Assembly (NCBI GenBank): GCA_903813345.2 | Contig: CAIIXF020000007.1 | Location: forward strand, 9,865,730-9,929,729 | DNA: 64,000 nt | Direction: 5' to 3' | Source of the DNA: Owenia fusiformis | Lineage: Eukaryota; Annelida; Polychaeta; Sabellida; Oweniidae | Shown here: positions 2,763-37,600 of the stretch, piece after piece | Position numbering within the stretch: position 1 is the first letter of the stretch | How the letters are laid out: each line of letters starts with the position of its first letter | Program-made: the position numbers and the translations under genes | The notes under the pieces: model-generated | What the model saw: the letters and a program-made list of their open reading frames with translations, nothing else | Databases searched by the model: none | Told to the model about the DNA's origin: nothing

Positions 2763-3420
2763 ACAAGGCACAGGACGTGAACGAGATCACACCATCAAAT
2801 AGGTGTAGAACTTGATATCCCCTATCATGTGTGCGAATTTGAAGGAAATCCAATAAGCGTTTTTTTCTAAAATGGTGATGACAAGATTGATCAAAAAAAC
2901 CTTTAAAATGGCCACCAGAAAACAAGATGGCCACCCAAAAGTTAATCAGCTCTAGTACTTGATATCCTCTATCATTTGTGTAAATTTGAAGGAAATCTGA
3001 TGAGCGGTTTTCCTGAAACGGCGATGACAAGATTTTTCGAAAAACCTTCAAAATGGCCACCAGAAAACAAGATGGCCACCCAAAAGTTAATCAGCTCTAG
3101 TACTTGATATCCTCTATCATTTGTGTAAAGGAAATCCAATGAGCGGTTTTCCTGAAATGGCGATGACAAGATTTTTCGAAAAACCTTCAAAATGGCCGCC
3201 AGAAAACAAGATGACCACCCAAAAGTTAATCAGCTCTAGTACTTCATATGCTCTATCATCTCTGCGAATTTGGAGAAAATCTGATGAGCAGTTTTCCTTA
3301 AACGGCGATGACAAAAAGCGGGACGATCACGACCACGATCACGACCACGATCACGATCACGATCACGACCACGGCCACGACCAGTATGACGACTATATCC
3401 CACCGATGGTGTGATAAAAA
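2763..3420 (+). mobile_element. Tandem-core repeat element, copy 1 (pearl/HINE-like)
   Basis: A non-coding element with a recognisable layout. The left flank carries ATCACACCATC (2786-2796). About three units of a 145-bp repeat follow (TTAATCAGCTCTAGTACTTG and AAAATGGCCACCAGAAAAC motifs), then a GATCACGACCAC microsatellite (about 3325-3382). The right end carries GATGGTGTGAT (3405-3415), the exact inverse of the left motif. Two relatives lie at 11901-13120 and 17341-17672. The architecture matches the bivalve 'pearl' / Helentron-associated non-autonomous elements; that family assignment is inference. Minus-strand reading frames here are repeat artefacts. Confidence 0.75.
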
Positions 3421-10680: not shown

Positions 10681-13600
10681 CTGAAATCACACAAACAATA
10701 AATATTAAAGACCAAGTTTCTTCATCTTATATGAGGGGATACTGATAGGGACAGGCACAGCATGGGGGCAGTAACCTCCAAGGTGACTCAGTGTCACATA
10801 CTTCATCTAAAATATGTTCAAATGTTTATGTTTAAAACATTGCTTTGCCAGTGTTCTCCAAAGCATTCTTTCTTAAGTAGTTGAAAAATTAAAATTAAAA
10901 ATATGCCAATTTATCATGATTCTTCTCAGATTCAAGTGGGTCTAATGGGTTTTCAAAAGGATGCAGCAGCCACTTGTTTTTTTGTTTCATTGCTAGGGAG
11001 ACCACTGTTCACATATGTATAACCTTCACAATGACAACTGTAGTTCAAGGAAAAAACAAAGTTAAAATAACCTTCTTGCTTCTCTACTGAAACAGAATCT
11101 ACGTGTATTCTGAAATGCAAACGCAAAGTCAAAACAATTTCCATTAATGTTAAGGAAATAAAAAGTTATTGTCGTATCATGCTGTATCATGGTACAAGCA
11201 AATAGAAAATGTCAAAGTGGTGTGATCAAAGTACTAAAAATAAGTAATAATTAAAATAACTCCATCATTTGCTGGCACAATTCAACTGATTCATGTTCAC
11301 AAGAATTGGCGAATGTAAAATGATTCTCAACATCGCAGTGGTCATAATTGTTGCATCTAACATCATACATGTAGATGGAGGAGATAGTGTCCAAAATGGT
11401 AAGGTTGCTTCTTTTTCAATGTCAGTAGTCTTTAAAGGACAACTGAAATAGCTTTTCCCAACTTGCAGCTACAAAAATGCGTTTTTTTCCATTGTAAGCC
11501 CAAGGTAGAGTTCTTGCGATAGCCATTATAAAATAAATGTTAGATAACTGCTAACGGTCATAGATAAGGAAATAAAACTAACTGATCAATCAAATTGGCC
11601 CCCATGTGATAACTAACGTCATATACAAAATATAGCTTTGGTTTATTGGTTCCTTAGTAATCACAACGTCACGGCAACCATAGGATTGTAGTGTAAACAA
11701 ATAACAAAACATTTTGGCATTATGACGTCATGATCTAATGGAACAAAACGGGCCACGTGGGGACCAGTGAAAGAGATCACGTGGGGGCCAATAATGTCAC
11801 AACCAATTTGAATATTGCTTATTAAGCAGCTATAACGATCGTTAGAGTGAAATAACTTTCACACTACTGATAAGAAAACATGTCAAAATACATTTATCAA
11901 ACAAGGCACAGGACGTGAACGAGATCACACCATCAAATAGGCAGACACTATGAACCAGGAAAACTGTTCTCCTATTATGTTTACAAATTTCAAAAACAAG
12001 AAACAAGATTTTTCAAAAAAACTTCAAAATGGCCACCAGAAAACAAGATGGCCACCCAAAAGTTAATCAGCTCTAGTACTTGATATCCTCTATCATTTGT
12101 GTAAATTTGAAGCAAATCCGATGAGCGGTTTTCCTGAAATGGCGATGACAAGATTTTTCAAAAAACCTTCAAAATGGCCACCAGAGAACAAGATGGCCGC
12201 CCGAAAGGTAATCAGCTCTAGTACTTGATATCCTCTATCATGTGTGTAAATTTGAAGGAAATCCGATGAGCGGATTTTCTGAAATGGCGATGACAAGATT
12301 TTTCGAAAAATCTTCAAAATGGCCGCCAGAAAACAAGATGGCCGCCCAAAAGTTAATCAGCTCTAGTACTTGATATCCTCTATCATTTGTGTAAATTTGA
12401 AGGAAATCCAATGAGCGGTTTTCCTGAAATGGAGATGACAAGATTTTTCGAAAAACCTTCAAAATGGCCACCATAAAACAAGATGGCCGCCCAAGAGTTA
12501 ATCAGCTCTAGTACTTGATATCCTCTATCATGTGTGTAAATTTGAAGGAAATCCGATGAGCGGATTTTCTGAAATTGCGATGACAAGATTTTTCGAAAAA
12601 TCTTCAAAATGGCCGCCAGAAAACAAGATGGCCACCCAAAAGTTAATCAGCTCTAGTACTTGATATCCTCTATCATGTGTGTAAATTTGAAGGAAATCCG
12701 ATGAGCGGATTTTCTGAAATGTAGATGACAAGATTTTTCAAAAAACCTTCAAAATGGCCACCAGAAAACAAGATGGCCGCCCAAAAGTTAATCAGCTCTA
12801 GTACTTGATATCCTCTATCATGTGTGTAAATTTGAAGGAAATCCAATGAGCGGTTTTCCTGAAATGGCGATGACAAGATTTTTCGAAAAACCTTCAAAAT
12901 GGCCGCCTGAAAACAAGATGGCTACCCAAAAGTTAATCAGCTGTAGTACTTCATATGCTCTATCATCTCTGCGAATTTGGAGAAAATCTGATGAGCAGTT
13001 TTCCTTAAACGGCGATGACAAAAAGCGGGACGATCACGACCACGATCACGACCACAATCACGATCACGACCACGATCACGACCAGTATGACAACTATATC
13101 CCACCGATGGTGTGATAAAAATTATATTGATTCCTTTAGGTTAAAAATACCATTTCATATCTGCTAAGTGGGTGGTTTGTCTATTTTTATGATCTGTCTC
13201 AACTTCATGTAGATGTAAATTGGTTTTCAGGTGGTTGCAACCTTATTTTCAAAATCTCAGGTGCAGCACACATTTAATTAAATGCTCGGAAATTCAGTGA
13301 TTGTTAAAGAATGTTATCAATTCTAAAGGAAAGTGTGTGAATGTTATACAGTGAACTTATTTTGTGTCAACAAGAAAAAATTAAAATACAGTATACAGTA
13401 CATCTATATTACAAGTTCAGACATTTACGGTAGATGTAAGAATCTAATCATTATTTAGTTGATAATGTTTACATGCTTCTTATCAATTTCTTCAGGAAAA
13501 AGAATACGAGTGAAGCGAATCATTGAACCAAATACAGTAGGTCATATATTTTTTCCTTAATAAAGTAATAATTTAACCACATACAACATGTTTGTTTCCT

Positions 13601-16600
13601 GATCATAATTTTTTCTTCTTTTTAGTTTTTTCTTTTTTTCTAGTAACCATCACTCCATCATTTGTTAACTATTCAAGATCATTAGTTGTACTTTTATTTG
13701 CCATTATCTCATGAATGAGAAATCATTTGTTTGTCATCCCATAATTTTTAGGATGCATCGCCTAATGAGCATCCATGGATGGCACTTCTATCTGTAGGTG
13801 GTTTATGTGGAGCTAGCATTATTACAGAGTGCTACGGACTAACAGCAGCACACTGCTTTGGAATACCGTAAATTTCACTATTATAACAAATAGAAATCTG
13901 ATGACGTCAATCAACCATGTTTGCTTTAAGTGAAGCCATTTTCTTAAAGTTCTTAGATTTCAGAAAAGTTTGAGCCCTTTTAATATTTTACAATTGAACA
14001 TTTAAGTTTTATTACATTCAGATACTCATTGGTTAACCTGCAATCAAAGTTTGATCAGTATTAAAAGAATTTGTCCATCATTTTGAAAACTCTGGTTACT
14101 ATGAGTTTGCTTTATTCTGTGATTCAAAAGTAAGTTATAACATAACTAATAAATGAGTTTAAATTTCAAAATGTTGAAATACATATTGATTAATTTATAA
14201 AATTTTGTCTGTTTATTTTCAAGCAAATCACCTCTAGAAAGGTTAAGTGTTAGCGTTCATAAGAGAAATAGCACAGATGAGAAACGACAAGAATACTATT
14301 TATGGGATAAATACAAAGGTGATACAGAAAAGAAATACTTCAAGTATTACATGCATGAAGATGCCAACAATTCCACAAACTGGATGCCTGATCTTGCTCT
14401 TGTGAGACTTTCCCACCCTATTACCTTCATTCCAAATAAAGTTGGAGCCATACACCTATCGAAAAAAACACTTGAAAAAACACTAAAAGTCCAAGCATAT
14501 GGATGGGGGCGAGACAAAACATGTACAACAGGAACTCTGCAAGATATTTTAAAAAAGCGAAACGAAGACTTGGATGCATGTAAGGCTGTAGGTGGTCAGT
14601 GCTCACATACTTTTACTAATATACTTGGAAAGGGAGATTCTGGAGGACCATGGGTATCTGCAGGAAAGGATGAATCTGGTGCTTTGGTGGATTGTCAAGT
14701 TGGTGTCTCTGAATCTTGCATACTTCCTATAGATGATAGCCGTATTATGAATATCGATTTCTTCATTAATAATGGCTGGATAATGAAAAAGATCAAAGGT
14801 AAGAATATCTAAACAGTTTTAAACGTTCACTTAATGCAAAATATATATTCTACTACAACAATTGGTCAATGTTCACTAATATCATTAAAGATGAATATTA
14901 AAAAATGTATGTAAATAGAGTAAATGGTAAGAACTAGCATATAACAAGAGGTCACACAGTTGAATAGAGATATGAGGATGCTATTCTAAAAATATATAGA
15001 CTATACAGTACAAATATGTAATATATATATACTGTTATGTGCAGTTTTTTCTTTACTTTACTACAAGTGTATGAGCTAATATCAATTGACACTTTTTATC
15101 TTGTTTAAAAGAAATTGAAGAAGATATACTGAAGGACAAGGAGTTCCCCAAATATTGCAATGAACAGGTTATCAAAACATGCTCACCATTTATTCCAAAT
15201 AAAAGTAAGCACATTATAACAATATATGACTCTCCTAGTAAAACTTTTATGTACAATTACAAATCTTTGAATTGAATTTCAATAAACAAATGGATGATAG
15301 ATAAACTTTGACAATGTACTGTTTTCATACTGCAACAAACCATTTTATAACTCCTACACTTGAACATATAAAAACACAAGTATCCTACATGCAAAACCAC
15401 TAATTCTGTATATATCATTACAGCTGTTGATCTGGTGTTTGTATTTGATATGTCTGGTAGTATCAGTATGCAGTCGTTCAATTTGAGCAAGGAAGTGGCT
15501 ATTATAATCTACAAAGAATTAGTTGCTAAAGGGTACAGTGTCCTCGTGTCTGTTGTCACATTTCATGTTGATCCCACTGTCCAGTTCTACATGAAGAAAT
15601 ACAAGCCTGGTAAAGTCCCATCACCAGACGTAATTAATGCCATAAATAATATAACTATGGAACCTCTCAAAGATGGTCGGCAACAGTCAAATACAGGAAA
15701 GGTGCTGAATGTGATAAAGAAGGAAATGCTTGGGAATGGAGACCGTTCGTATGCACCAAGTTTTGTGATATTATTTCATGATGGTGTACTCTTCCCGAGA
15801 TCACCGAGAAAGAGAAGAGATGTGATCAAAATAGCTAATACCATAGAGAAGCAGTACCATGGTGATATTCTTGGGGTTAAACTCAATAATGAAAATGGCT
15901 TTAATAATATTGGTAAAAAAGATCTGAAGAAAATTGCCAGTGGAGATCCTTCGAAGAATGATGTGTTCCCAAGTGCTGGTGGTAACCTGTATGAGGAAAA
16001 CAAGGATAAAGTTGCTGAAGCAATCGTGAACAGAATATCTGAAGAATAATTCCCTGTACACATACTTATGTGAATAAATTTTATGAAAATGAAAAACATA
16101 TTCAAGTTCAAATCAAAAGATCTTAGTTCTATAGTATAACTGATTACTAGACAACCATAGGTTTGTCTGACATTCAGCGAGCATGGTTAATTCAAATCTA
16201 GCATTAGATCACTGAGTTATTTAATAACATCAGGAGTATTTGAAACATTCCAATATGGTAGTGATGTAATATTTCAAAGTACCGCGAGTTGTTTGTAGAA
16301 TGAATCGAGGGAGTTTTTTCATGCATTTTGCTTATGTTTTTCATCTAAAAACAACAATACACTGTAAAACATTTTAGTGACAATAATATTGCTCCGTATA
16401 ATTCCCCCAAAAAGTTATAATTTTCACGGATTATCTACAGATTAACACCCAGGTATTTTTATTTTTCAAACTTCAGAGGGCTGGGAATCATTGTGTTCGA
16501 GGCTTTGAAATAATATAATGCTGTTTTAAATAGGTTTCATGTATGCCAATAATTTCTCAAATTTTGTAAACTGCACCAATTCTTTAATCCCTAGAATATT

Positions 16601-19600
16601 CTCTTGAAGGAATTTCCCATGTTAATCCAATGGTGTGGTTCAAAGCAGATTTTGAGATAACAGTGCAGGTTTAATTTGCCATCTGTGAAAACATGATATT
16701 TTGAAAATGCAAAGTTCACTTGATACTCATGTGCAAGGATTAGTTGCTGCAATAGCTCAAGAAATAAAACATCTAACTTGTCATCAGAATGTGTGATCCA
16801 TGCAGAATATGATCCTATGTTTCAAATTTAATGAATGACCTTCACATTGGTAACTTTTGTTTCAACTAAACTGATAAGTTATGGCTGTGATGCCATAGAT
16901 GCAATCTTGATATGCCAGGATTTGATTCTCCAATAACTCAAGTGACAGAACACTTAAACTGTTATTAGAAGGTTTTGATGATAGAAAATATGATCCGATG
17001 CTTAAAATCCAATGTATGGCCTTCACATTGGTAATCTTGTTCAAGGTAACCTGTACTAACACGGTAAAAATAACTACCTGGTACATAGATTTGCTACTTT
17101 TTAAATGTTAAAGAAATTAAAATTTATTACTATATCATACGGAGGTAGTGAAATGTCACACCAATGATCATAACATAAAGTTTGTCCTTGAGAATGAAAA
17201 CTGCAACATTTCTTGTCTTGAATTATTGAACAAAGGTTTACAGAGAATGCAAGGAAGAAAAATGATTCTCAACATTGCTGTTTTCATCCTTGTTGCATGT
17301 AATATAATGCATGTAAATGGAGGTAAGAATACTTTATTTTATTTACAAGATGGCCACCCAAAAGTTAATCAGCTCTAGTTCTTGATATCCTCTATCATTT
17401 GTGTAAATTTGAAGGAAATCCAATGAGCGGTTTTCCTGAAATGGCGATGACAAGATTTTTCGAAAAACCTTCAAAATTGCCGCCAGAAAACAAGATGGCC
17501 ACCCAAAAGTTAATCAGCTCTAGTACTTCATATGCTCTATCATCTCTGCGAATTTGGAGAAAATCTGATGAGCAGTTTTCCTTAAATGGCGATGACAAAA
17601 AGCGGGACGATCACGACCACGATCACGACCACGACCAGTATGACGACTTTATCTCACCGATGATGTGATAAAAATTAGCCAGCATTTGAGTTATTTTTGT
17701 GGATGGAAAGACAGATTGACAATATTATCATAATTCTAAAGTGGGTAGCAAAAACATAAAGTAAACATATTACTTTATTCCAGATGTCAACCTGATATTT
17801 GTATTTGATAAGTCAGCAAGTATCAGTGTCGGATCTTTCGAGCTGAGCAAAGAAGTAGCTATCAAGATATATGAAGGTTTGGTTGCCACTGAGGAGAACG
17901 TCTTTGCCTCTGCCCTCACATTTGATGTTGAGCCAAAAGTAATGTTCACCAAAGATGAATATACTACAACTTCCGACCCTGGTGTTGTTTTTGCTATAAA
18001 TGCTATTACCATGGAACCTTCCAAGGAAGGTCGACGTCAGACAAATACAAACAAGGCTTTGGAGATGGTCGAAGAAATGATGGATAATGCGTTTGTTTAT
18101 ATCATATTATTTTATGATGGTGTGCTCTTCCCTAGAACACCGACGAAGAGAAGAGATGTGATCAAAATGGCTAATAAAATAGAGGAGCAGTACGATGCTG
18201 ATATTCTTGGGGTTAAACTCAAGAATGAAAATGGCAATAATCGTATTGGTGCAAATGATTTGAAGAAAATTTCAAGCAAAAATCCTTCAAAGAATGATGT
18301 GTTCCCAAGTGATGGTGGTAACCTGAATGAGGGTAACAAGGATGAAGTTGCTGAAGCAATCATGAACAGAATATCTGTAGAATATGTTTTGTAAATAATT
18401 TGAATGGAACAATAAATATAAACTGAATTTAAAGAATTCATTAATGAAAAAAAGTTCCTTCCATCCAAACCAGAGTCCTTACAATGCGAATATCCATTCT
18501 TTATTTGTGAATCGCAAGTTCCCTTACGCTTAGAATTCCTACATCGCGAACCACACAGATTTGTGGTTCGTGATGTGGGAACTCCATTCGTGAGTGGAGA
18601 AATATGTTCAGGGAAGAAGAATTTGTGGTCGGGGACTAAAGGATCCACATCTGCATTGTGAGAACCATGGCTCAGGTGGAAGGAACATAGTATGTGAGGT
18701 CAGAACTGATGATCGCATTAGTGGAAGTCTAGGAAGCCTGACAATTCCATTCAAAGCTATACATGATGAGTTATGGCACTTTTGCTATATATGCAATCTT
18801 AATATGCTAGCCAAAGTAAAAGAACATCAAACTTATTATCAGAAGGTTGTGATCCATAGAGAATATGATTCCATGTTTAAAATTCAATGCATTACCTTCA
18901 CAATGGTAACTTTTGTTTAAGCTTAACTGATGAGTTATGGCACTTTTGCTATATATGCAATCTTAATATGCTAGCCGCGCCCAAGTAATAGAAAATCTAA
19001 TAACATGTTATCAGAAGGTTGTGATCCATAGAGAATATGATTCCATGCTTAAAATCCAATGCATGACCTTCACATTGGTAGCTTTTGTTTAAGCTAAACT
19101 GGTAAGTTATTGCTGGGATGCTCCAGATGCAAGCTTGATATGCTGGGATCAGATGCTGGGATAGATCAAGTAATAGAAGATCTAACATGTTATATCAGAA
19201 GGTTGGGATCCATCGAGAATAATTATGATCATATGCTTAAAATTCAATGCAAGGCCTTCACATTGGTAATCTTGTTCAAGGTAACCTGTACTGACACAGT
19301 AAATAGCACAGAGAATCTACATGCAAAATTGTATATGTTAAAGAAATAAAACTTTATTGACTTATCATAGGTAGGTAGTAAAATGTCAGGCAAATAATCA
19401 AAACAGAAAGCATGCCATTGACATTGATAATTGCATCATTGGTTGTATCGAATCATTGAACAAAGGTTTACGGAGTAAGCAAGGAAATGAAAATGATTCT
19501 CAACATTGTAGTGGTCATCAGTGTTGCAAGTAATACATGTAAATGGAGGTAATAGTGCTTTATTTTATTAAATATAACTGGCCAGCCATGTGTTAATCTC

Positions 19601-22600
19601 AAAGTATCTTTTAAAATCTTTTTTCAGTCAAATTTATTGAATGCAGGATCTACTTGCTTCATTGCTGAGGAGACCATTTTTCATGTGTGTTTATGATGTC
19701 GCAAATTATTCGAAGAAGTTTAGAATCAACACAGAATCATTTGTTTGTTTACCAGTTGACCAGGTAACATTTGAATGATGACACGGACTATGCTATCAAA
19801 TTCCAAGAATTCACTATCAAGAGTGTTATATGGCATCATGATTTGGATCTGTATCATACCATTTTGCGATATTGTATAATTTTAACCATATTTAACATTA
19901 TATGAAGGATTTTTAAAAATACAATAATAAGTCAGTATTTTTTATAACATAATAATGAATTAATTTGAAATTAAGTTCTGTTTTGATCAACTGATTCAAA
20001 TTAAAGTGAAATGAAGTGAATAATTAAAGAAGCAAACCCGCTCCATAGGATCTCGTAGAAACAATAAAAGTAGTAAATATTTATATTTCTTATCAATTTC
20101 TTCAGGTGAAAGAATACGAGTAAAGCGAATCATTAAACCAAATAAAGTAGGTCATATATGTTTTCCTTAATAAAGTAATCATTTAACCACATACAACATA
20201 TTTGTTTCCTGATCATAGTTTTTTCTTGTTTTGTTATAGCATTCACAATATCATTTGTTCGCTATTGAAGACCAATGCATTAACAAGACTAAATGTCACC
20301 ACCTTGAAAGTTATTGAAAATGCTAAGAATTTGTTACAGACACCGACCACCAAACACCATTCACAAAAAAAGTTGGAGACTATAACAATATGTCACCATT
20401 TCTGGTGTACTAGTTGTACTATTATTTGCCAATATCTCATGGGTTAGAAATCATTTGTTTGTCAAACCATAATTTTAGGACGCATCACCCAATGAGCATC
20501 CATGGATGGTGCTTCTTTCTGAACCTGGTATCAAAATATGTGGGGGCAGCATAATCACAGACTGCTATGGCCTAACAGCAGCACACTGCTTTGGAATACC
20601 GTAGGTTTATGAACACTGGTCCATTGATATTTGCCAATTTTAAAGCAGCAGCCATCTTGAAAATCTTTATTGCATAAAACTAATACATCATTACAACAAA
20701 TAGAGGAAATCCATGCAGTTATTTTCAGGATGGATAAACAGACAGACAGATGGACTGACTGACAGACAGAGGGTTTCACTATATCCCTTCCAAACTTTGA
20801 CCGTTTTGGGATAATAAGTAATTTTTTGAAATTAATAAAATTTTGTATAATTATATGATAAGAAAGTTAAAAAATATTTTTTTGCCTGTTTATGCTCACA
20901 AAGACCACCTCTAGAACGGTTTACTATTGGTGTTCATCAGAGAGGCAGCAAAGATGAAGACCGCCAAGAATATTATTTATGGGATAAATACAAAGGTGAT
21001 AAAGAAAAGAAATTCTTCAAGTATTACATGCATGAAGATGCCAACAAATCCACAAACTGGATGCCTGATCTTGCTCTTGTGCGGCTTTCTCACCCTATTA
21101 CATTCATCCCAAATAAAGTTGGAGACATACACTTATCAAACAAAGCACTCAAAGAAAAACTTAAAGTCCAAGCATATAGATGGGGGCTAGAGAAAACATG
21201 CAAGACAGGAAATCCACAAGATATTTTAAAAAAGCGAAATGAAGACATGGATGAATGTAAGGCTGTAGGTGGTCAGTGCTCAGAAACTTTTACTAATATA
21301 CTTGGAAAGGGAGATTCTGGGGGACCATGGGTATCTGCAGGAATGGATGAATCTGGTGCTTTAGTAGACTGCCAAGTTGGTGTATCGAGATCGTGCCCTA
21401 ATGACACTAGGAGCCGTATTATGAATATAGATTTCTTCATTAATAATGGCTGGATAATGAAAAAGATCAAAGGTAAGAATATCTAAACAGTTTTAAACGT
21501 TCACTTAATGCAAAATATATATTCTACTACAACAATTGGTCAATGTTCACTTATATCATTAAAGATGAATATTAAAAAATGTATGTAAATAGAGTAAATG
21601 GTAAGAACTAGCATATAACAAGAGGTCACACAGTTGAATAGAGATATGAGGATGCTATTCTAAAAATATATAGACTATACAGTACATGTATGTAATATAT
21701 ATATACTGTTATGTGCAGTTTTTTCTTTACTGTACTACAATTGACACTTTTTATCTTGTTTAAAAGAAATTGAAGATATACTGAAGGACAAGGAGTTCCC
21801 CAAATATTGCAATGAACAGGTTATCAAAACATGCTCACCATTTAATCCAAATAAAAGTAAGCACATTATAACAATATATGACTCTCCTAGTAAAACTTTT
21901 ATGTACAATTACAAATCTTTGAATTGAATTTCAATAAACAAATGGATGATAGATAAACTTTGACAATGTACTGTTTTCAAACTGCCACAAACCATTTTAT
22001 AACTCCTACACTTGAACATATAAAAACACAAGTATCCTACATGCAAAACCACTAATTCTGTATATATCATTACAGCTGTTGATCTGGTGTTTGTATTTGA
22101 TATGTCTGGTAGTATCAGTATGCAGTCGTTCAATTTGAGCAAGGAAGTGGTTATTATAATCTACAAAGAATTAGTTGCTAAAGGGTACAGTGTCCTCGTG
22201 TCTGTTGTCACATTTCATGTTGATCCCACTGTCCAGTTCTACATGAAGAAATACAAGCCTGGTAAAGTCCCATCCCCAGACGTAATTAATGACATAAATA
22301 ATATAACTATGGACCCTTCCAAAGATGGTCGGCAACAGTCAAATACAGGAAAGGTGCTGAATGTGATAAAGAAGGAAATGCTTGGGAATGGAGACCGTTC
22401 GTATGCACCAAGTTTTGTGATATTATTTCACGATGGTGTACTCTTCCCGAGATCACTGAGAAAGAGAAGAGATGTGATCAAAATAGCTAATACCATAGAG
22501 AAGCAGTACCATGGTGATATTCTTGGGGTTAAACTCAATAATGAAAATGGCTTTAATAATATTGGTAAAAAAGATCTGAAGAAAATTGCCAGTGGAGATC

Positions 22601-25600
22601 CTTCGAAGAATGATGTGTTCCCAAGTGCTGGTGGTAACCTGAATGCAGAAAACAAGGATAAAGTTGCTGAAGCAATCGTGAACAGAACATCTGAAAAATA
22701 ATTCCCTGTACACATACTTATGTGAATAAATTTTATGAAAATGAATAACATATTCAAGTTCAAATCAAAAGATCTTAGTTCTATAGTATAACTGATTACT
22801 AGACAACCATAGGTTTGCCTGACATTCAGCGAGCATGGTTTATTCAAATCTAGCGCTAGATCACTGAGTTATTTAATAACATCAGGAGTATTATTTGAAA
22901 CATTCCAATATGGTAGTGACGTAATATTCTAAAGGACCGTGAGTTGTTTGTAGAATGAATCGAGGGAGTTTTTTCATGCATTTTGCTTATGTTTTTCATC
23001 TAAAAACAACAATACACTGTAAAACATTTTAGTGACAATAATATTGCTCCGTATAATTCCCCCAAAAAGTTATAATTTTCACGGATTATCTATAGATTAA
23101 CACCCAGGTATTTTTATTTTTCAAACTTCAGAGGGCTGGGAATCATTGTGCTCGAGGCTTTGGAATAATATAAATGCTGTTTTAAATAGGTTTCATGTAT
23201 GCCAATAATTTCTCAAATTTTGTAAACTGCACCAATTCTTTAATCCCTAGAATATTCTCTTGGAGGAATTTCCTATGTTAATCCAATGGTGTGGTTCCAA
23301 GCAGAATTTGAGATAACAGGAGGGTTTATCTTTAAATACACCTTATTGGGTTGCTTTCATTTATATTGCATACCACATATAAACCTTCCAAAAATCAAAT
23401 TGTTGGCAAGAATCTGAGCACTTGAAGGTACAATCCTCATAATGACACATTTATAGTGAGTATTTGTATACAATATTTGCCCCATTTGATCACCATTGTA
23501 TATTCTTTCGTTATAGCTCAAAATCTTTCAGTTGACCGTGGAATAACCAAAGATTGCATTTTAAAGCGATGTGCAGGTTTAATTTGCTATCTGTGAAAAC
23601 ATGATATTTTAAAAATGCAAAGTTCACTTGATACTCATGTGCAAGGATTAGTTGCTGCAATAGCTCAAGAAATAAAACATCTAACTTGTCATCAGAATGT
23701 GTGATCCATGCAGAATATGATCCTATGTTTCAAATTTAATGCATCACCTTCACATTGGTAACTTTTGTTTCGACTAAACTGTTATGGCTGTGATGCCATA
23801 GATGCAATCTTGATATGCCAGGATTTGATTCTCCAATAACTCAAGTGACAGAACATTTAAACTGTTATTAGAAGGTTATGATGATAGTAAATATGATCCG
23901 ATGCTTAAAATCCAATGTATGGCCTTCACATTGGTAATCTTGTTCAAGGTAACCTGTACTAACACAGTAAAAATAACTACCTGGTACATCGATTTGCTAC
24001 TTTTTAAATGTTAAAGAAATTAAAATTTATTACTATATCATACGGAGGTAGTGAAATGTCACACCAATGATCATAACATAAAGTTTGTCATTGAGAATGA
24101 AAAATGCAACATTTCTTGTCTTGAATTATTGAACAAAGGTTTACAGAATAAACAAAAAAGAAAAATGATTCTCAACATTGCAGTTTTAATCTTTGTTGCA
24201 TGTAATATAATACATGTAAATGGAGGTAAGAATACTTTATTTTATTCAATAAAACTTATCTTAATCCTTTCTTGGTCAAACAAAATTTATTTTTGTTGTA
24301 TTGTTGTTTTAGAAAATAAGAATTGTATTTTGGACCAATATTTCAGAATATAGGCTAAATGCAAATTCTGGTTAAAGGCATCAACTGACATCAATTACAT
24401 GTACATAATAATAATGCTTCTGAAAGATATTTCAACTTAATGAGAATTCCTTATCTAGGTGACCATTTTGGAATAAAAAAAGATGATATAATATTTGCAA
24501 TCTACTCCTTAGCTTTGATGAAATTAGACATACTAGTACTCGTGAGCAATGCAATTCCCAAATCTGGGCAATCATTCTGGATTTCTAGAGGGTGAAACAA
24601 TATGGTACAATATTTGAAATCTACATCTTTCCACCAAATATGAAAAAATTAGCGAGCATTTGAGTTATTTTTGTGGATTGAAAGACAGATTGACAATATT
24701 ATCATAATTCTAAAATGGGTAGCAAAAACATACAGTAAACATATAACATTATTCCAGATGTCAACCTGATGTTTGTATTTGATACGTCAGGAAGTATCAG
24801 TGTTGAGTCTTTTGGGTTGAGCATAGAAGTAGCTATCAAGATATATGAAAGGTTGGTTGCCAATGAGGATAATGTCTTTGCCTCTGCCCTCACATTTGAC
24901 GTTGAGGCCAAAATAAAGTTCACCAAAGATGAATACACACCTACTTCCGACCCTGGTGTTGTTGATGCAATAAATGCTATTACCATGAATCGTTCCAAGG
25001 AAGGCCGACGTCAGACAAATACAAACATGGCTTTGGAGATGGTCGAAGAAATGATGGATAATGCGTTTGATTATATCATATTATTTTATGATGGTGTGCT
25101 CTTCCCTAGAACACCGAAAAAGAGAGGAGATGTGATCAAAATGGCTAATACCCTAGAGCAGCAGTATCATGCTGATATTCTTGGGGTTAAACTCAAGAAT
25201 GAAAATGGCGTTAATAATATTGGTGAAAAAGATTTGAAGAAAATTGCCAGTGGAGATCCTGAACAGAATGATGTGTTCCCAAGTGCTGGTGGTAACCTGA
25301 ATGCAGAAAACAAGGATGAAGTTGCTGAAGCAATCCTGAACAAAATATCTGAACAATAATTCCATGTACACATACTTATGTGAATAAATTTTATGAATGA
25401 TCATGTATACTTTCAGAATTCTGTGTCTTAAGGTCAATTATTTCCACCTTGCCGGGCCTGTTCTAGGGTATTAGTACTAGTTCAAAAGGCATTTATTTTA
25501 CCATATTGACCTGAGCAATATGTGACGTCATAGTGGTGGGCCATAGTGGCGGGCCAAAAATGGATTAACGCCCGGCTAGAAATGAGATATCGTTCAATGC

Positions 25601-28600
25601 ATATAATTTTTGTTCAGAGGTACTCAGTTCTTGCTATGGTCACACCTTTCACCTGAAAATCACCTGAGCTATCACCTGAAAATTATATCAATGCTCGTAT
25701 TCCCAAAGGACCTCTTGTTAAACAGTTATTCTTCCTTTTATATATTAATGACATGACTGAAATAAAATATATAAGTGCTTTATTTTTGCCAACGATACAT
25801 CAGTCTACTACCCATACTACTTTACAAGAGGACATGGACATTATTATCCCCTGGTCAAACAAATCTGGTCAAACAGGTTAACATAACAAGAAGTGCACAT
25901 GTCATCTTCCATGACAAAAATTCTTTCCTGAACGATTATCTACTTGGTATCGATGACAAACCCATAGCTGAAACTACTTACCATAAACATCTTGGACTCA
26001 TCTAGGATGGTAAGTTAACTTTTAACTAGAATTCACAGAATATCAAATCCCACCAAACAAACAAAATATTCATGAATTTATATATGTCACATTGTAATAC
26101 ATACCATCTACACTGCCCTAGATTTGCTGATAATAAAAGACAGACATTGGAGATATTTTACTGAGGAATTTAGGGATGAAAAATGTTACTTAATTACTTA
26201 GACACATCGAAGGTATTAATCCTTAAAACTTAAAACCATCAGAAAGGAGGTGATCGTGATCATTAAATAATGAAAGATATCAGTCTGAATAATGGTGCAC
26301 ATTTTCTTGGTGTTAAACTCAATAAAGGTAATGGCATTGATCCTAATTTGGAGCAGAGGATTTGAAAAAACTTGAGAGAAGAAACGTGAGCCTTCCACTG
26401 CAAATGATGAGTTTCCAAAAGAAGAGGTCGACACTGATGAAGAAAAGAATCCAGTTGCTGAAGAGACCATCTACAAAGGTATGACACAAATCCATATATC
26501 CACTGAGAGATTTATGGGTTGATATTTTGAGAAGTTACAGTTCACTTGAAAATAGGATTTATTCAATTTGACTTTAAAAAATGTTTAAATGTTTTTGCAA
26601 TTCATTTCACAGCTTCACATGCATGACATTCACAATGGTAACTTTTGTCTAAGCTAAACGGATAAAATATTGCTGCAAACCATAGATGCTGATGTGCGAT
26701 AATTAGATGCTGCAATAGCTCAAAATAGCTGAAATAGCATGTACATGACAATTAGAAACTTTATAAATGTTAAAGAAATAAAATTTTAGTGCCACATCAT
26801 AGTTAAGTAATAAAATGTGTAATAAAACTTAAGAATGATTTCGAAATCAGATATGTTATTTAAAAGCAATGATAACTGCAGCATTTCTTGTTTGGAACCA
26901 CTGAAGAAAGGTTTACAGAGAAAGCAAAGAAAAAAATGAATCTCAACATTGCAGTTTTCATCTTTGTTGCATGTAATATAATACTCGTACATGTAAATGG
27001 AGGTAAGAATACTTATTTTATTAAATATAACTGACTACATGTTTATCTTAAACTATTTTTATGTCTTAATCCTTTCTTGGTCAAACAAAATTTATTTCAT
27101 AATTTTGTTGTTTAAAAAATAAGATAATTCAATTAAAAAATAGATTACACTGTTCAGTTTTGTCACAATATTTTTGTGGTCAACATACATTAAGAGACTA
27201 GTATGAATTTACACAAGTTTTACAATATGTTTTGCCTTTATCATTCCATTTCATGCATTTTTCTTAACAGTATAACAGTTCTGACTTAATTTCAGGATAA
27301 TGCTTCAATTGTTAAAGTTATCTAGCAAAATATTGAGTGTTTTTTTAAATTCTAATGAATTTATGCATTTTTGCAATTTTAAAACTTCAATATTTGATCA
27401 GATATATCAATCCTTATATTTTCAAGTAATTGAAAATTATAGGATTATAAGGAAAGTACACTGGCATGATTTTTGTCCTCTCCATCCCTTCTGGATCTTT
27501 CTTCTACAAACAGAATGTTTAAAAGTGACCATCCCCTACACCATCAATTGTAGATAACATCCCCATAGGTGTAATATATCATATGAAAGCTTAATTGATT
27601 GTGGACTGAAAATCCAGAAATAATGAAGATAATCAGAGAAACCAATGCAGAGCCTGTCTGGAGATTTCTTCAATTCGTGGTCCTCTACTGGAGATTTCTA
27701 CAATATTGTTTTGTTAAGATTCTTGGTTCATTTTTAGTGATTTTTACCAAAACGTTTCAAAAACAATCGATGTTATTATTGTGAAAATATGCTGTTACTT
27801 CATTCTGAAGTTGAAAATAAGCCATTCCTGGCCAAAAAATTGCATACATGAAATTCCCTGGGATTTTTTTGACTCATTCATATATGGGTGCTTATTAGAA
27901 TTGTCTGAAGCAGGTAATCTGAATTTTCAAAGCATCTCAGGTGCTAATTACAGAGAATATGTTACATCTTTCCACCAAATATGAAGAAAATCTGTTTACT
28001 GGTATTCTAGTTATTTTTCAGATGGATGGATGCACAGAGAAACGGACAATTTTTTCTGAATTCTTAAATGGTTAACAAAAATATGTACAGTACAAATATC
28101 ACATTATTCCAGATGTCAACCTGATGTTTGTGTTTGATAAGTCTGGAAGTATCAGTGTTGGATCTTTCGAGTTGAGCAAAGAAGTGGCTATCAAGATATA
28201 TGAAGGTTTGGTTGCCATTGAGGATAACGTCCTTGCCTCTGCCCTCACATTTAGCGTCAAGCCCAAAATAATGTTCACCGCTGATAAATATACTCCTACT
28301 TCCGACCCTGGTGTTGTTGATGCTATAAATGCTTTTACCATGAATCCTTCCAAGAGTGGTCGACGTCAGTCAAATACAGACAAGGTATTAGAGATGATCA
28401 ATGAGGAGCTGGAGAGATGGGCACCCAATGGCAATGTTTTTGTGGTATTATTTTATGATGGTGTGCTCTTTCCTAGAACTGCGATCAAGAGAGAGGAGGT
28501 GATCAAAATGGCTAATGACATGGAGATGGATGGCTCTGCAAATATTCTTGGAGTTAAACTTAAGAATGGTAATGGCAATGATCCTTTGGGAGCAAAAGAT

Positions 28601-31600
28601 TTGAAGAGAATTGCCAGTGGAGATCCTGAACAGAATGATGTGTTTCCAAGTGTTGGTGGTAACCTGAATGCGGAAAACAAGGATGAAGTTGCTGAAGCAA
28701 TCGTGAACAAAATATCTGGAAGATAATTCCCTGTACACATACTTATGTGAATAAATTTTATGAATGATCATGCATAATTTCAAAATTCTGTGCCTGAATT
28801 TCAATTCTGTCTGCTTCGCAGGTGCGTAATTCTTTGAGGAGTGAATGGTATAACTGGTTACTGGATATCCATTAGATTATGGTTTATATCCAATTAAAAA
28901 AATGTACATGACATGTTTGTTATTTTGAAAATGCTAGGTAACTTGACAATCAGAGAGCACATGGTGTATTTGACATATGGAAATGCAAAGTTTGCCTGAT
29001 ATTGAAAGACTGAATGGTATATTTGTCATTTTGAATAATGCAACTTTACTTTAACATTGAGAGACAATATGGTTTATTTGTCATTTTGAGAATTCAAGGT
29101 TCATTTGACACTGATCATGTATGAATTAGAGTATGAATGAAATGTTCCTTGGTGTTATGGTCTCAGATTGTGATATTGGTACTTGAATGATGGGGGAGGG
29201 GGTATTAGACACTTGTTTCTTTTCACGTTGGATTATGATTCGGTATAGTCAGGGTTTTATTTCCTTATAACTGCTGTGCTCTTAGTTTTCTTTTTCTTGT
29301 TATGTTCTGTATTGGTATTTTCCAGTTGGCACTTGCACTTACACATTTAATTAGCGAAAATTCCTTTTGAAAATGAAAGATTCATTTTCCATTGGAGAGA
29401 TCATTATATATTTAACATTTTAAAACAAGATTTTCTTGATATTCAGGTTTGTCTGAAATTGTGAGAGGGTATGGCATTTTGAAATGTAAGCTTAGTTTAA
29501 ATTTAGATGTTTTGAAAATGCAAGGTTTACATGAGCTTGAGAGTACAACCTTTATTTAAATGTAATGTTGCCAGGTGAGATCAAGATATCTTATAAAAAT
29601 TACCAAATTCACTTGATATTGAGAGTGCATGCTTTATTCAAACATAAGCTGTGATGAGTATTTTGAGTTGAGAAAAGAAGTAACTTGATGGAAAATGGAG
29701 ACCATCCTAATATCACTGTTTTATGATTTGATTTTATGTTGGTCTAGTACACCCTACAACTGTAACCATCAGAGAGGGAGTGATCATAAAAGCTAATAAA
29801 GATATCAATCTAAACTAGGAAAATAGCAACTCCATGGAGTAGCAAATCCCACCGAACAAAACATATTTTGATAATTAGTGGCCATCTTGAAAGTTCCTTC
29901 TTGAACAGAGCATATCAGCATATAAAATTTGAACCAAATCCGTCCACTGGTACTTGAGTTATCAAAGATTATATTTTTTTCTGAAAAATGGCAGCCATTT
30001 TGAAATTCAGCCGCCATCTTGAAAATTCTTTCTCTAACAGAGCTACTGTGTTAAACATCACCATATAAAATTTGAGCCTAATTGGTATTTGAGTTATCAA
30101 AGATTACGCTTTTTATGAAAAAATGGCAGCCATTTTGAAATTCAGCCTCCATCTTGAGATTCTTTCTGTAACAGAGCTACTGTGCCCCAAGGCATCATCA
30201 TACAAAAATCTGAAGCAAATCCATTAGCTGGTATTTGAGTTATCATAGATTACATTTTTTACGAAAAATGGCCGCCATTTTGAAATTCCACCTCCATCTA
30301 TTTTCAAAATATGCATGAACGTCCATTCAAAGTTGATGTCTGAATGTTTAAAAGGTGTTTAGAATGAGGATTGAAAAAGTTGAAAATAGAACTTTTTCAT
30401 TTGAGATTTTTCTCGGTAGATCAGATGTAAGTCGAGAAAGAAGAGAGGAAGTCAAAACATTCCTGACAGAAAGCATATAAATCAATTTATAATTGAATCA
30501 AACAGCAGGAAAAAGAAAACTGCTTACAAGCGGAGGTTGGGGAACATACATCTGGTTTTATATCTTAGTTTTATTGATTGTAAAAATATTTATTTGCCTG
30601 ATATCTGCTGAGATGTGGTATGTATATTTGAGTTGATTATTAAATCAAAAAATAGTTTTTTCAGTCTGAGTATTGTAATTTGTATCTGATCTTATCCTGG
30701 GATGTAATTGAAGCCTCTATATCTTAGAATTCCTGTAAGATGGTTTATTTAACATGCATGACCGGCCTTCACAATGCTGAAATGCTTCAAGATAAACTGG
30801 AAAGTTATGACTGAAATCCTATACAGTGAAACCTGTAAAGTGGAACACCTCTAGAAATGGAACATCTCTGTTAGTGAAGACTTTTCAGAGTCCCAAGATC
30901 AACTGACTTAATATTAAATTAACCTCTATAAGTGGAAAACCTCCCAAGTGGAACACTTTTTAGAGGTTCCAAATGAGTTACAATTAGACAGGTTTTACTG
31001 TATATGAAATGCTGACAAAGAAGGATCAGATAGTGCAATAGCTCAACAGAAAGAGCATCTTACATCAGCCCCTATGCCTTATATTAACATAATTATCTTG
31101 TTCAAACTAACCTGCATAATCAGTGCAAAATAACTAATAGCCTCTACGTGACAATTTGCTGCTTCTTAAAAATTAAAGAAATAAAGTGTTATTAACCTAT
31201 CATCGGTAGGTAATAAAATGTATGACAAATGATTTCAACATAAAATATGTTACAAACAATGATATTGCACTTCCTGCATCAAATGAGAAAGGTCCACAAA
31301 GTAAGCGAGGGAAGAAAAATGATTCTCCACGTCCCATTGGTCATCACTATTGCATGTAATATAATACATGTTTATGGAGGGGATGTTGTCCCTAATGGTA
31401 AGAGAGCTTTATTTTCTGTGTTTATCTTATACTTTTTTTTGCCTTACCTTTCTTGTTCAAATAAATAAGCATTTTTCCAACCAAAATACAGTACCATCAT
31501 TTTGTAACAAGTCTTTTGTATTCAACATAAGGGACTGAAAGGAATTGCTCTCATCCTTCCTTTCATGTCATGTCTATTTTCTAAAAGTCAAACAGTTCCT

Positions 31601-34600
31601 TTCTTTATATCAATTTTTTTTGAAGGGACATAGACACTTTTGCTTGAATCTTCAATTACTTGGATATTTGATCAGAGATCTTACTCCTTATTATTTAGAA
31701 AATAATTTTTTGAAAATAGAAGGAACTGAAACAAAGAAGATTGATGAAGATTGGTCAAACATTTTACACTCTCTATTATAATTTCCTTCATCCATACAGG
31801 GTGCTTCATAATGACCATATCCCTTCACTTCTTAATGTAGATAGCTTACCCCCATGTGTTATTTATTTTCCATTTTTCTAGATGTCAACCTGATGTTCGT
31901 ATTTGATAAATCGGGAAGTATCAGTGTGGCGGATTTCGAGTTGAGCAAAGAAGTGGCTATCAAGATATATGAAAGTTTTGTTGACCTTGGGGATAACGTC
32001 CTTGCCTCTGCTCTCACATTTAGCGTCAAGCCCAAAATAATGTTCACCGCTGATAAATATACTCCTACTTCCGACCCTGGTGTTGTTGATGCTATAAATG
32101 CTTTTACCATGAATCCTTCCAAAATAGGTCGACGCCAGTCAAATACAGACAAGGTATTAGAGATGATCAAAGAAGAGGTTGATAGATGGATGCCCAATGG
32201 CATTGTTTTTGTGATATTATTTTATGATGGTGTGCTTCATCCTAGAACTGCAGCCAAGAGAGAGGAGGTGATCAAAATGGCTAATGACATGGAGGATGGC
32301 TATTTAGATATTCTTGGTGTTAAACTTAAGAATGGTAACGGGAATGATCATCTGGGAGCAATAGATTTGAGGAAAATTGCCAGTGAAGATCCAGAAGAGA
32401 ATGATGTGTTTCCAAGTGAAGGAGGTAACCTTGATGAAAACAACAAGAATGTAGTTGCTGATAATATCATGTACAAAATTATTGGCCCACAATAATTCCA
32501 GCTTTGTCTGTAAAAGTTCATGAAAATTAAATAAAACATCTTCATCAAACATGAAAGCATAGTTTATTTGATATTCTGAAGATAGTTTACTTAACTTTGA
32601 TGAGAGGATGTTTATACTTCACTGGACACTAAGAGAGACCATGGTTTCACATTTTGAAAACGCTCGATTCATTTCATCAGCCGCCTTGCCAAAGTTTTTC
32701 AAATAAAAGTCAAATGAATTAAATGTTAGTTTTTTCCCACTTTAATTTTTTGTTATTTACCCCATCAAACTTTCAATTACCTCATCTCATATTTTTCCAT
32801 CTTGATTAAGTTCCTGTTGACATTAAAGACACACATGATCCATTGTAGTTTAATGGTTCAATTGTCATGAAGAATAAATAAAACTGCTTCATTATCATTG
32901 CTTAATGGTATGTCAGGGCTATGGTATTTGTTACCTGCTGTCATGAAAATGGCATGGCTCATTAAACATAAACATATCTTAGTGAAATTTATCATTTATC
33001 TTGTTGATATAGATATTTGTTATCTTTATCTAACAGATATATATTATTCATAGTGTTACATGCAGCAAATGCACATTCTTCTAGATACATATGGGTTGAT
33101 CAATAAATTTTACAAACAATATTTGGAATCATGTCATCAAACTTGGCAGAAATACAGTAGATGGACTACCAGCAAATAATTGAATATTTGAATAATTTAA
33201 TGGAAGAATGGCCTTCTTTTGATGGAATAAAAACAACTACAAATATTAGGTTAAAAAGTTAATAACAATAACAATCCTGTTATACTTACTTTTCATGAGT
33301 AAATCCTGTCCATAGTACAGCAGAGCGTGATAACAGAACTCGAGCTCCTCCTTAGTGTACACCAAGTACTTTCGTTGTTGTCGGATTTGGCTGACGAGAG
33401 CAGCGACATCTATGATCCCATGCCCGATGTTGATCTCCTGAAGGCCTGTGTAGACCACACAGAATATACCACAACGTCCACTGCCGGTGCTGCAATCAAA
33501 CATGTTTACTCTTTGAATAAGTAAGGGGACACCCTTTACAGTACAAAGACACAACAAGCAATATGGATTCAACACATAGTTTGAGCGTTACAAATAATTT
33601 TGTTGATCAACTTTTGGTAAATCTGAAGCACGATTGATGTTGGGATCTGGTATTTACTTTGAAATGACTTTAATCGGTTGGTTATAACCCGTATGGATTA
33701 ATCAAAAACATCGGTCTGGACAGATATGTAGTGACGTCCCCTTGTGCAAAACATTAAATTGAATTAATTTTTATCGCACTTTGAAAAAGTGCTATATTGT
33801 CGTCGTCTTGTGCTGTTGGGCGGGCGGGCGTGCGGGCGGGCGGCACATAAACCAAATCTTGTCATCAAATTTCCAGGATAACTGCTTACCTGTTCAACTT
33901 GAAATTTTCACAGATGCAAGAGCAGACTAGTACCAAGATCTGATTAGGTTAAGGGCATGCTGGGTAAACTACGTGGTGGCCATTTTGAATTTTTCAACAA
34001 ATCTTGTCATCAAAATTCCAGGAAAACCACTTATCCGTTCAACTTGAAATTTTCACACATTCAAGAGCAGACTATTGCCAAGATCTGATTAGGTTTTGGG
34101 TATGCTGGCTGAATTACATGGTGGCCATTTTGAATTTTTCAATTTGGCGGCCATTTTGAATTTTTCAACTTGCTCCAAATTGACCAAATTTTTTTTTTAA
34201 AAACATCTACAAGTTCTCAGAAGTTCAAATCTGACCTTAGATTTCAGATTTGACCTTTCATTCACCTTCAGTGACCTTGAAAAGGTCAAAAAAGTTGATT
34301 TTCTAAATTGATATTTTGGATTTAAATTTAGGTCAGCTTAATTACAAAACACCTACTGAGGTCTGAAAAAGTTAAATTTTCAAGGTCGAAGGTCATTAAA
34401 CTAGGTCACAAATGATGTTATCCAAGTTTCTTAAAGTTTGAGACTACAAATCAATTCTTGTCATCAAAATTCCAAGAAAACCGCTAACCTGTTCAACTTG
34501 AAATTTTTACACATGCAATAGCAGACTAGTGCCAAGATCTGATTAGGTTTAGGGCATGCTGGGTAAACTACGTGGCGGCCATTTTGAATTTTTCAACAAA

Positions 34601-37600
34601 TCTTGTCATCAAAATTCCAGGAAAACCACTTATCCGTTCAACTTGAAATTTTAACAGATGCAAGAGCAGACTATTGCCAAGATCTGATTAGGTTTTGGGT
34701 ATGCTGGCTGAATTACATGGTGGCCATTTTGAATTTTTCAATTTGGCGGCCATTTTGAATTTTTCAACTTGCTCCAAATTGACCAAATTTTTTTTAAAAA
34801 ACATCTACAAGTTCTAAGAAGTTCAAATCTGACCTTAGATTTCAGATTTGACCTTTCATTCACCTTCAGTGACCTTGAAAAGGTCAAAAAAGTTGATTTT
34901 CTAAATTGATATTTTGGATTTTAATTTAGGTCAGCTTAATTACAAAACACCTACTGAGGTCTGAAAAAGTTAAATTTTCAAGGTCGAAGGTCAAGGTCAT
35001 TAAACTAGGTCACAAATGATGTTATCCAAGTTTCTCAAAGTTTGAGACTACAAATCAATTCTTGTCATCAAAATTCCAAGAAAACCGCTAACCTGTTCAA
35101 CTTGAAATTTTTACACATGCAAAAGCAGACTAGTGCCAAGATCTGATTAGGTTAAGGGCATGCTGGGTAAACTATGTGGCGGCCATTTTGAATTTTTCAA
35201 CAAATCTTGTCATCAAAATTCCAGGAAAACCACTTATCCGTTCAACTTGAAATTTTTACAGATGCAAGAGCAGACTATTGCCAAGATCTGATTAGGTTTT
35301 GGGTATGCTGGCTGAATTACATGGTGGCCATTTTGAATTTTTCAATTTGGTGGCCATTTTGAATTTTTCAACTTGCTCCAAATTGACCAAATGTTTTTTT
35401 AAAATCATCTACAAGTTCTCAGAAGTTCAAATCTGACCTTAGATTTCAGATTTGACCTTTCGTTGACCTTTGATTTTCTAAATTGATATTTTGGATTTAA
35501 ATTTAGGTCAGCTTAATTACAAAACACCTACTGAGGTCTGAAAAAGTTAAATTTTCAAGGTCGAAGGTCATCAAATTAGGTCACAAACAATGTTATCTAA
35601 ATTTTCCCAAAGTTCAAGACTACAAATAAATTCTTGTCATCAAAATTGCAGGAAAACCGCTAACCTTGTCAACTTGAAATGTTTACAGATGCAAGAGCAG
35701 ACTAGTGCCTAGGTCTGATTAGGTTTTGGCCATGCTGGGTAAATTGCATGGTGGCCAGTTTGCTCTTCAAAGTGCGATATTTATCACTGTGTGTCTTGTT
35801 TCATTATAGCGTTGAATATGTTCTCACCACAAATGTTACTATTTTTTTCTTTTCTGATCGTCTCATGAATGCTGATCAAATAGATAAATAATTTAAATAA
35901 ATAATGAATGATGATGATGAATATTAATCACTCTATATCCATGAACATCATGTATGTTCAGCAAAGATAAACAGAACATTGAATACTGTCGGCGTATATC
36001 TATATACTTGTATACACTGATTAAACACGTTTCATGACACAAAAATTTCCACATGCATGTTCTAAACTCCTCGTTAATTAAATATCACCTTGGTTTTGGA
36101 GGAAGAGCAGTAGAGGAAAGGCCACGATGGGATCTGCTACTGTTATTACTATAACCTTGATATTACTGTTAGGGATTATAGGGAGCTTTGACACAATACG
36201 TGGCGTGCAGGGGAAATGTTTGAAACCGCATCCAACTATAAAATGCAGTCGTCATAAACCCAAAGCCTGTCCAAAGTCGTACATATGCTCAAGAAAGGAT
36301 AACTTTAAATGTTGCAAGCAGAATCCACCAATAACATGTAAAGATGATAAAGGTAACATTCGTAAGGAAAAGGATGAATGGAAACACTCTGACCAATGCA
36401 ACACATGTATGTGTGGAAAGCAAGGGAAAATAGAATGCACCAATAGGAAAGGTTGTTCTGATTGTTTGAATCCGCATCCATCTATTAAATGTAGCGGGCG
36501 GTCTGATGCATGTCCAAACTCCTACAAGTGCTCAAAAGTTAAAAATGATGATAGATGTTGTCAATACAGTAGACCAGACACATGTAAAACGGTATATACA
36601 GATCCTCCTAAAAATCTCTTACCTAGATCATGCAAGGGAAAAGGTAGCAGAGCATGTCCAGGAGGATACAAATGTCAAAGCTTTGGAGGAAATAAATTCA
36701 CGATGTGCTGCTTGGAAAGTGTTACTACATGCAAAGATAATAAAGGTAACATTCGTAAGGAAAATGAAAAATGGAAAGACCAATGTAACACATGTTCTTG
36801 TAAAGGCCAAGGGAAAATAGAATGTACAAAAAGGATTTGTTCAACAACTCAACCTCCAACGTATGAATGCCATCCATCCATAAAATGTAGCCGTCGATCT
36901 CCCAATGCCTGCCCGAAAACATACCAATGTTCCAGAAGTAATAACTTTAGATGCTGCAAGGAGGATGTAATGAAACTGACAATATGTAAAGATGGCAACG
37001 GTAACATTCGTGAAGAAAATGAGAAATGGAAACATTCTGATCAATGCAACACATGCTCTTGTGGAAAGCAAGGGAAAATAGAATGCACAAAAATAAGATG
37101 TCCCAAAAATCCACCTCAAGACAACTGCCACCCAACCATAAAATGTAGCGGTAATGGCTGTCCTAACTCTTACAAATGCTCAAAGAAGGACAATAAATGT
37201 TGCCAGTACAATATACCACAAACATGTAGAACAATATATAAAGACCCTCCTAAAAATCTCATACCATGGGCTTGCTTGGGAGGAGGAAGCAAACCATGTC
37301 CAGAAGGTTACACGTGTAAAAGATTTGAAGAAAATCAATTCTCCATGTGCTGCTCAAATGAAGTTGCCACATGTATAGATGATGAAGGCAATATTCATAA
37401 TGAATCTGAAGAATGGCTACATCCTGACAGATGCAACACATGCACCTGTGGGAAGGATGGTAAAATGGAATGCACCAATAAAAGAAAATGTCCAAATTAT
37501 TGCACAACAAATGGGCGGATAGGATGGATAAAGGATAGCTGCCAACAATGTAGCTGTGTTAATAACAAATTTAGAAATTGTCAAAGCCGATGTGATGAGG

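Follow-up and report, generated by a model that had tools for sequence, protein, structure and literature searches.

Gene A of Owenia fusiformis, a candidate tethered serine protease with a C-terminal VWA domain

Gene A encodes a serine protease domain followed by a VWA domain in one reading frame, and the domain order is confirmed for this gene. It is best read as a domain shuffle making a tethered protease, with a mechanism that we infer. Judging from its sequence, the product is moderately likely to be the zymogen of a secreted S1A serine protease, carrying at its C-terminus a VWA binding domain through which the enzyme would be tethered to a partner.

Gene structure and domain order of gene A

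Within the window, the 64,000-nucleotide stretch of DNA analyzed here, gene A occupies positions 11320-16049 on the + strand and consists of six exons encoding 509 aa in a frame that is open without an internal stop. All introns are GT-AG, with phases 1, 0, 2, 1, and 1. Exon 1 (11320-11398), which has a phase 1 end, contains the start codon and a hydrophobic signal-like peptide; the VWA-only genes of the same window start with similar exons. Exon 2 (13496-13536) carries the motif RVKR/IIEP, a putative zymogen activation site in which RVKR is presumably a furin-like motif, and counterparts of this activation stretch are present in gene C and in a related gene on scaffold C12 (the C12 gene). Exon 3 (13752-13867) encodes the N-terminal part of the protease with the catalytic His74, exon 4 (14224-14798) the protease with Asp135 and Ser218 (GDSGGP), exon 5 (15112-15204) a two-cysteine linker with phase 1-1 ends, and exon 6 (15424-16049) the VWA domain with its MIDAS and the stop codon, past which an AATAAA is found at 16073.

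In Pfam, a Trypsin match covers residues 40-227 (3.7e-21, 76.4 bits; cut-off 20.6) and a VWA match covers residues 304-477 (1.7e-13, 51.6 bits; cut-off 23.8), while no NCBIfam match was found in gene A. Motif positions identify H74, D135, and S218 in the protease and D310, S312, S314, T392, and D421 in the VWA domain, which we take to be the catalytic triad and the MIDAS, respectively. The Trypsin match above the cut-off and the His/Asp/Ser triad place the protease among the S1A serine peptidases, and the Pfam match, the modeled fold, and the DxSxS..T..D motif place the second domain among VWA domains. The six GT-AG exons and the Pfam order bear out the first-pass annotation, which had described a protease followed by a VWA in one reading frame, and motif positions and alignments do the same for its statement that the triad and MIDAS are intact. 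The first 21 residues hold all of the most hydrophobic 17-residue windows (Kyte-Doolittle windows, as distinct from a signal-peptide program), and the next best window (1.66) is a protease segment. Because the strongest hydrophobic windows all lie at the N-terminus, the product is probably secreted, and the description of the protease as "circulating" found no support.

Shorter forms of the product are possible, since poly-A-like motifs occur in introns 4 and 5 and retention of intron 4 would give an early stop and a protease-only product. The same motifs and the protease-only stop, along with the VWA-only genes next door, could also mean that the protease exons and VWA exons belong to separate, merely adjacent mRNAs. 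However, exon 5 sits between the two with matching phases on both sides, the last intron leaves just 219 bases ahead of the VWA exon, and this exon has no in-frame ATG upstream before a stop. Moreover, the domain order and the protease/linker and linker/VWA phases are found again in a diverged gene on a different scaffold, and we consider separate mRNAs very unlikely.

A tandem repeat of 139-145 bases is located in intron 1 of gene A (12003-13021) and near the start of the window (2806-3314). A piece of the repeat is also found in the intron of gene B, as recognized by translation (similar ORF at 17369-17668), and ACGATC/ACGACC repeats come after it at each of the three sites. Rfam gives no match in the window that reaches the gathering score, and ARAGORN (bacterial setting) finds no tRNA.

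Recurrence and divergence of the protease-linker-VWA order

The genome searched (498 Mb in 525 contigs, 12 of them >30 Mb) contains at least 34 matches to the VWA query and at least nine to the protease query. The best VWA match outside the window falls in C12:33.33-33.36 Mb, and this region also holds four of the seven protease matches outside the window, including the best one. On its minus strand, the C12 gene comprises a signal exon, protease, cysteine-rich linker, and VWA in six GT-AG exons encoding 488 aa without a stop, and its protease exon is the third among the seven matches. Pfam finds Trypsin (75.2 bits) and then VWA (30.3 bits) in the C12 gene, which is 40.1% identical to gene A over 456 aligned residues. 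The two genes share the phases of the exon 3/exon 4 (2), protease/linker (1), and linker/VWA (1) junctions as well as a KTCxPxxP motif in the linker, but the C12 gene differs in its 5' junctions and has an extra intron within the protease. Because the order and three junction phases recur in a 40% identical gene, the protease-linker-VWA order appears to be more than chance. Its recurrence makes the protease-then-VWA layout look like a genuine type of protease that evolved locally.

A CCP-like stretch, seen by eye, lies upstream of the C12 gene, and a reading of this gene as CCP-protease-VWA was rejected, as the gene's own signal exon separates the stretch from the protease. Sequences similar to the beginning of a VWA domain were also seen by eye immediately upstream of the C12 VWA exon, at L001:5480-5600 (- strand), and are perhaps decayed exon copies.

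Gene C (19493-22701, + strand; exons 19493-19548, 20113-20146, 20479-20600, 20904-21472, 21767-21856, and 22076-22701) is a second protease-linker-VWA copy in the window, in which the first join is uncertain. Its Pfam matches run from protease to VWA as in gene A, and its protease, linker, and VWA exons are open; the signal exon has an indel relative to gene A. With the acceptor homologous to that of gene A the frame breaks, and gene C was rejected as a clean second copy on this ground; with a non-homologous acceptor 7 nt further in, it is open and encodes 498 aa. Gene C had been said to share the layout of gene A, which is secure for its domain order and less so for its start.

Protease exons 3-4 of genes A and C are, on codon comparison, under purifying selection (dS 0.336, dN 0.087, dN/dS 0.26). 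Identity between the two genes is 80% in intron 2, 51% in intron 3, and 87% in exon 4, and reaches 96.6-99.1% in the last two introns (4 and 5), in the exon encoding the VWA, and over 301 bases of 3' flanking sequence. This rise in identity from intron 4 onward suggests that the 3' part has recently undergone gene conversion or been duplicated anew. The VWA exons of genes A and C have a dN/dS of 0.955 on just 13 differences (3 synonymous and 10 non-synonymous). The VWA exons appear only moderately constrained, and less than the protease exons, because five other VWA pairs have dN/dS values of 0.445-0.686.

A genome-wide census scored 150 of 685 Pfam VWA candidates and 150 of 527 Trypsin candidates. 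Among the matches listed, which exclude the VWA and protease exons of genes A and C and the C12 gene, one close same-strand pair of protease and VWA neighbors was found by eye, on contig C208. In this pair, a VWA exon with phase 1 ends (C208:16827-17399, equivalent to L010:827-1399; + strand) is located between trypsin exons, and their four junctions all agree in phase (2, 1, 1, 0). When spliced in, the exon puts a VWA domain inside the trypsin domain just after GWG, and Trypsin matches in two stretches around the VWA (4.3e-55); the protein without the exon has a Trypsin match in one stretch (3e-59). The VWA exon could be an optional exon. At C1:37840411-37860487 (- strand), VWA matches with near-identical scores recur every 1885-1886 bases (11 starts), to all appearances a recent tandem array with two VWA matches in each unit.

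The first-pass annotation had stated that no named family has this order, and a search of the open-access literature agrees in naming no protease-then-VWA family, although this is a limited test and annotated relatives may well exist. Papers with "VWA-SP" or alike concern, by title, Ku70, PET imaging, C3 convertases, and a mosquito complement inhibitor. Bacterial N-terminal trypsin domains, with no VWA, are described in part of another paper (PMC8567305).

VWA-only neighbors and putatively exchangeable C-terminal modules

In four genes of the window, all on the + strand, a signal exon similar to that of gene A is joined in phase 1 to a VWA exon with nothing in between, and the resulting proteins are 220-230 aa long. 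These are gene B (17262-18394; signal exon 17262-17322 and VWA exon 17784-18394, no protease, 223 aa), gene D (24165-25359; 24165-24225 and 24758-25359, 220 aa), gene E (26936-28726; 26936-27002 and 28113-28726, 226 aa), and gene F (31319-32495; 31319-31397 and 31882-32495, 230 aa). Exons 2-5 of gene A constitute a 1-1 cassette, because exon 1 ends and exon 6 begins in phase 1, and skipping them joins exon 1 to exon 6 in an open frame of 234 aa.

Modules of relatives on C11 and C12 were taken as same-strand domain matches rather than modeled exon joins. One C11 relative (L008) has Trypsin, three Sushi, and CBM_14 on one strand, and another (L007) has two Sushi behind the protease on the same strand, with an EGF match in the stretch downstream that is not placed in a gene. 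A Sushi match follows the protease in one of the three other C12 proteases. The VWA and protease trees comprised eight rows each, with long branches flagged. Well-supported branches of the VWA tree require the protease label to change twice, and a single change is seen in 0% of 200 bootstraps; in the protease tree, a single label change occurs in 14% of 200 bootstraps. The trees do not show a single origin of the protease-VWA arrangement, and one and two origins both stand. The protease may have been lost in genes B, D, E, and F or gained in genes A and C.

The best reading of these gene layouts would be a single protease combined with interchangeable binding modules at its C-terminus. A more far-reaching proposal is that a phase 1 protease cassette was put between the signal exon and varied C-terminal modules, and that gene loss or exon skipping in this cluster yields a matched set of secreted proteins directed at one ligand, some of which cut (protease-VWA) and others do not (VWA-only), with a tethered protease arising independently of factor B. 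We regard this proposal as possible rather than probable.

If gene A encodes a tethered protease, cleavage after RVKR by a furin-type or other protease would free the Ile N-terminus and switch the protease on, and the VWA would stay attached through the linker after activation. The VWA would hold the enzyme on a partner offering an acidic MIDAS ligand, which could be matrix, a surface, or another secreted protein. In such a modular family, the phase 1-1 protease cassette is joined to a VWA in gene A, whereas relatives seem to combine it with Sushi and chitin-binding modules; the VWA-only neighbors could bind the same partner without cutting it. The suggestion of the first-pass annotation that the VWA could localize proteolysis is a fair one, and it is strengthened by related proteases that appear to carry Sushi or chitin-binding modules at the corresponding C-terminal position.

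Alternatively, the VWA arm may be an anchor to matrix or tube and not a regulator, with the protease stored in secreted material that it matures or digests. The CBM_14 chitin-binding module behind a related protease is consistent with an anchor, as are two genes further on in the window, each a single long open frame. One (36082-37659) encodes a cysteine-rich protein with Pacifastin_I above the cut-off and lustrin-type matches below it, and the other (38494-39639) encodes a protease whose Trypsin match is complete and whose TSP1 match falls below the cut-off. However, adjoining genes need not share a function, and we consider a purely anchoring role rather unlikely.

Comparison with clotting-type proteases, VWA domains, and complement factor B/C2

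The family profile of the protease has 467 PDB sequence matches at 1e-8. The best 60 of the 467 are mostly clotting factors and kallikreins, and factors X, IX, and 2xxl, which is presumably insect Grass, are the best-scoring sequences. Among the PDB matches listed, the gene A protease is by sequence similarity nearest to clotting-type S1 enzymes. It is like S1A chymotrypsin-family proteases (factors X, IX, and insect Grass) in fold family, triad, and a putative Ile N-terminus after basic residues, but differs from factor Xa (1kig) in having Ile at the place of Asp189 and Gly at the place of Cys191. Eight of nine genome matches were aligned, with the weakest left out and the rows joined by hand (four are without some N-terminal residues and one is without an inner stretch). 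The triad is present in all eight rows, and the C12 gene has AIHC in place of AAHC. Position 189 is Ile in six rows (A, C, and four C12) and Thr in two (C11), position 191 is G in six and F in two, and the Asp189 of trypsin-like (Arg/Lys) specificity is absent in all eight. Because gene A has Ile at position 189 and Gly at position 191, its substrate preference is predicted not to be trypsin-like. Clotting and clip proteases carry their extra module N-terminally, whereas that of gene A is C-terminal.

D8, S10, S12, T90, and D119 are kept in all seven VWA domains aligned out of the at least 34 genome matches. Structure prediction covered the VWA exon and the window paralogs, and the model of the VWA exon is moderate (pLDDT 65.8, pTM 0.72). 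A Foldseek search with the model gives 271 matches with an E-value of at most 0.001, and the best 50 of the 271, with query TM-scores of 0.51-0.67, consist chiefly of integrin I domains (alpha-M and others), vWF A1/A2, and collagen VI; Ku is also among these 50, and a C2-containing convertase structure is at rank 42. The 57 PDB sequence matches to the VWA profile comprise collagen VI alpha-3, integrins alpha-M/alpha-L (alpha-M 3.4e-6), C2 (2.7e-6), a mussel thread matrix protein, and, more weakly, factor B (1.6e-4). From sequence and model, the VWA of gene A is taken to be of the ligand-binding kind, and these matches do not establish a particular link to complement. The VWA/I domains of integrin alpha-M, vWF A1, and collagen VI have the same fold and MIDAS residues, whereas gene A has a single VWA attached behind a protease.

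The familiar pairing of a VWA with a protease is that of factor B/C2, and a second, differently ordered pairing would be a natural test of what the VWA adds to the protease (localization or allosteric control), for which the VWA-only neighbors offer ready-made competitors. As given in parts of two papers, the architecture of C2/Bf is CCP-VWA-protease (PMC11312191; PMC4714745), and in the relevant part of the former, Annelida is named for C3 and DF and not for C2 or BF. Gene A could be a rearranged factor B/C2 acting as a C3 convertase, with the VWA gripping a C3-like protein. The matches of the VWA profile to C2, alpha-M integrin, and factor B and the rank 42 Foldseek match are consistent with such a convertase, as are the thioester-domain (TED) loci of the genome (17 exon-level matches). 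However, no Sushi match occurs in gene A (E up to 0.01) or the C12 gene (E up to 0.001), the order is reversed (Trypsin 40-227, VWA 304-477), the putative activation site is conventional, and factor B and C2 are both absent from the best 60 of the 467 protease-profile PDB matches. Moreover, none of the three NTR matches (C345C fold) in the genome is near a TED locus, although split exons could be missed. A rearranged convertase is thus highly improbable, and a circular permutation of factor B was rejected as the leading reading because of the missing CCP and the absence of factor B and C2 from those best 60 matches.

Gene A is like factor B/C2 in that a single chain, predicted to be secreted in the case of gene A, combines a MIDAS-bearing VWA with a protease of the chymotrypsin fold, and the MIDAS of the factor B/C2 VWA is present in the VWA of gene A. 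It is unlike factor B/C2 in having the protease first, no CCP found, and a conventional putative N-terminal activation site, and it is not filed under factor B because two defining features, the CCP and the order, fail. "Not factor B but a comparable idea", as first proposed, remains an apt description: gene A is not a factor B and may, by analogy, resemble factor B in one respect, the VWA arm on the protease.
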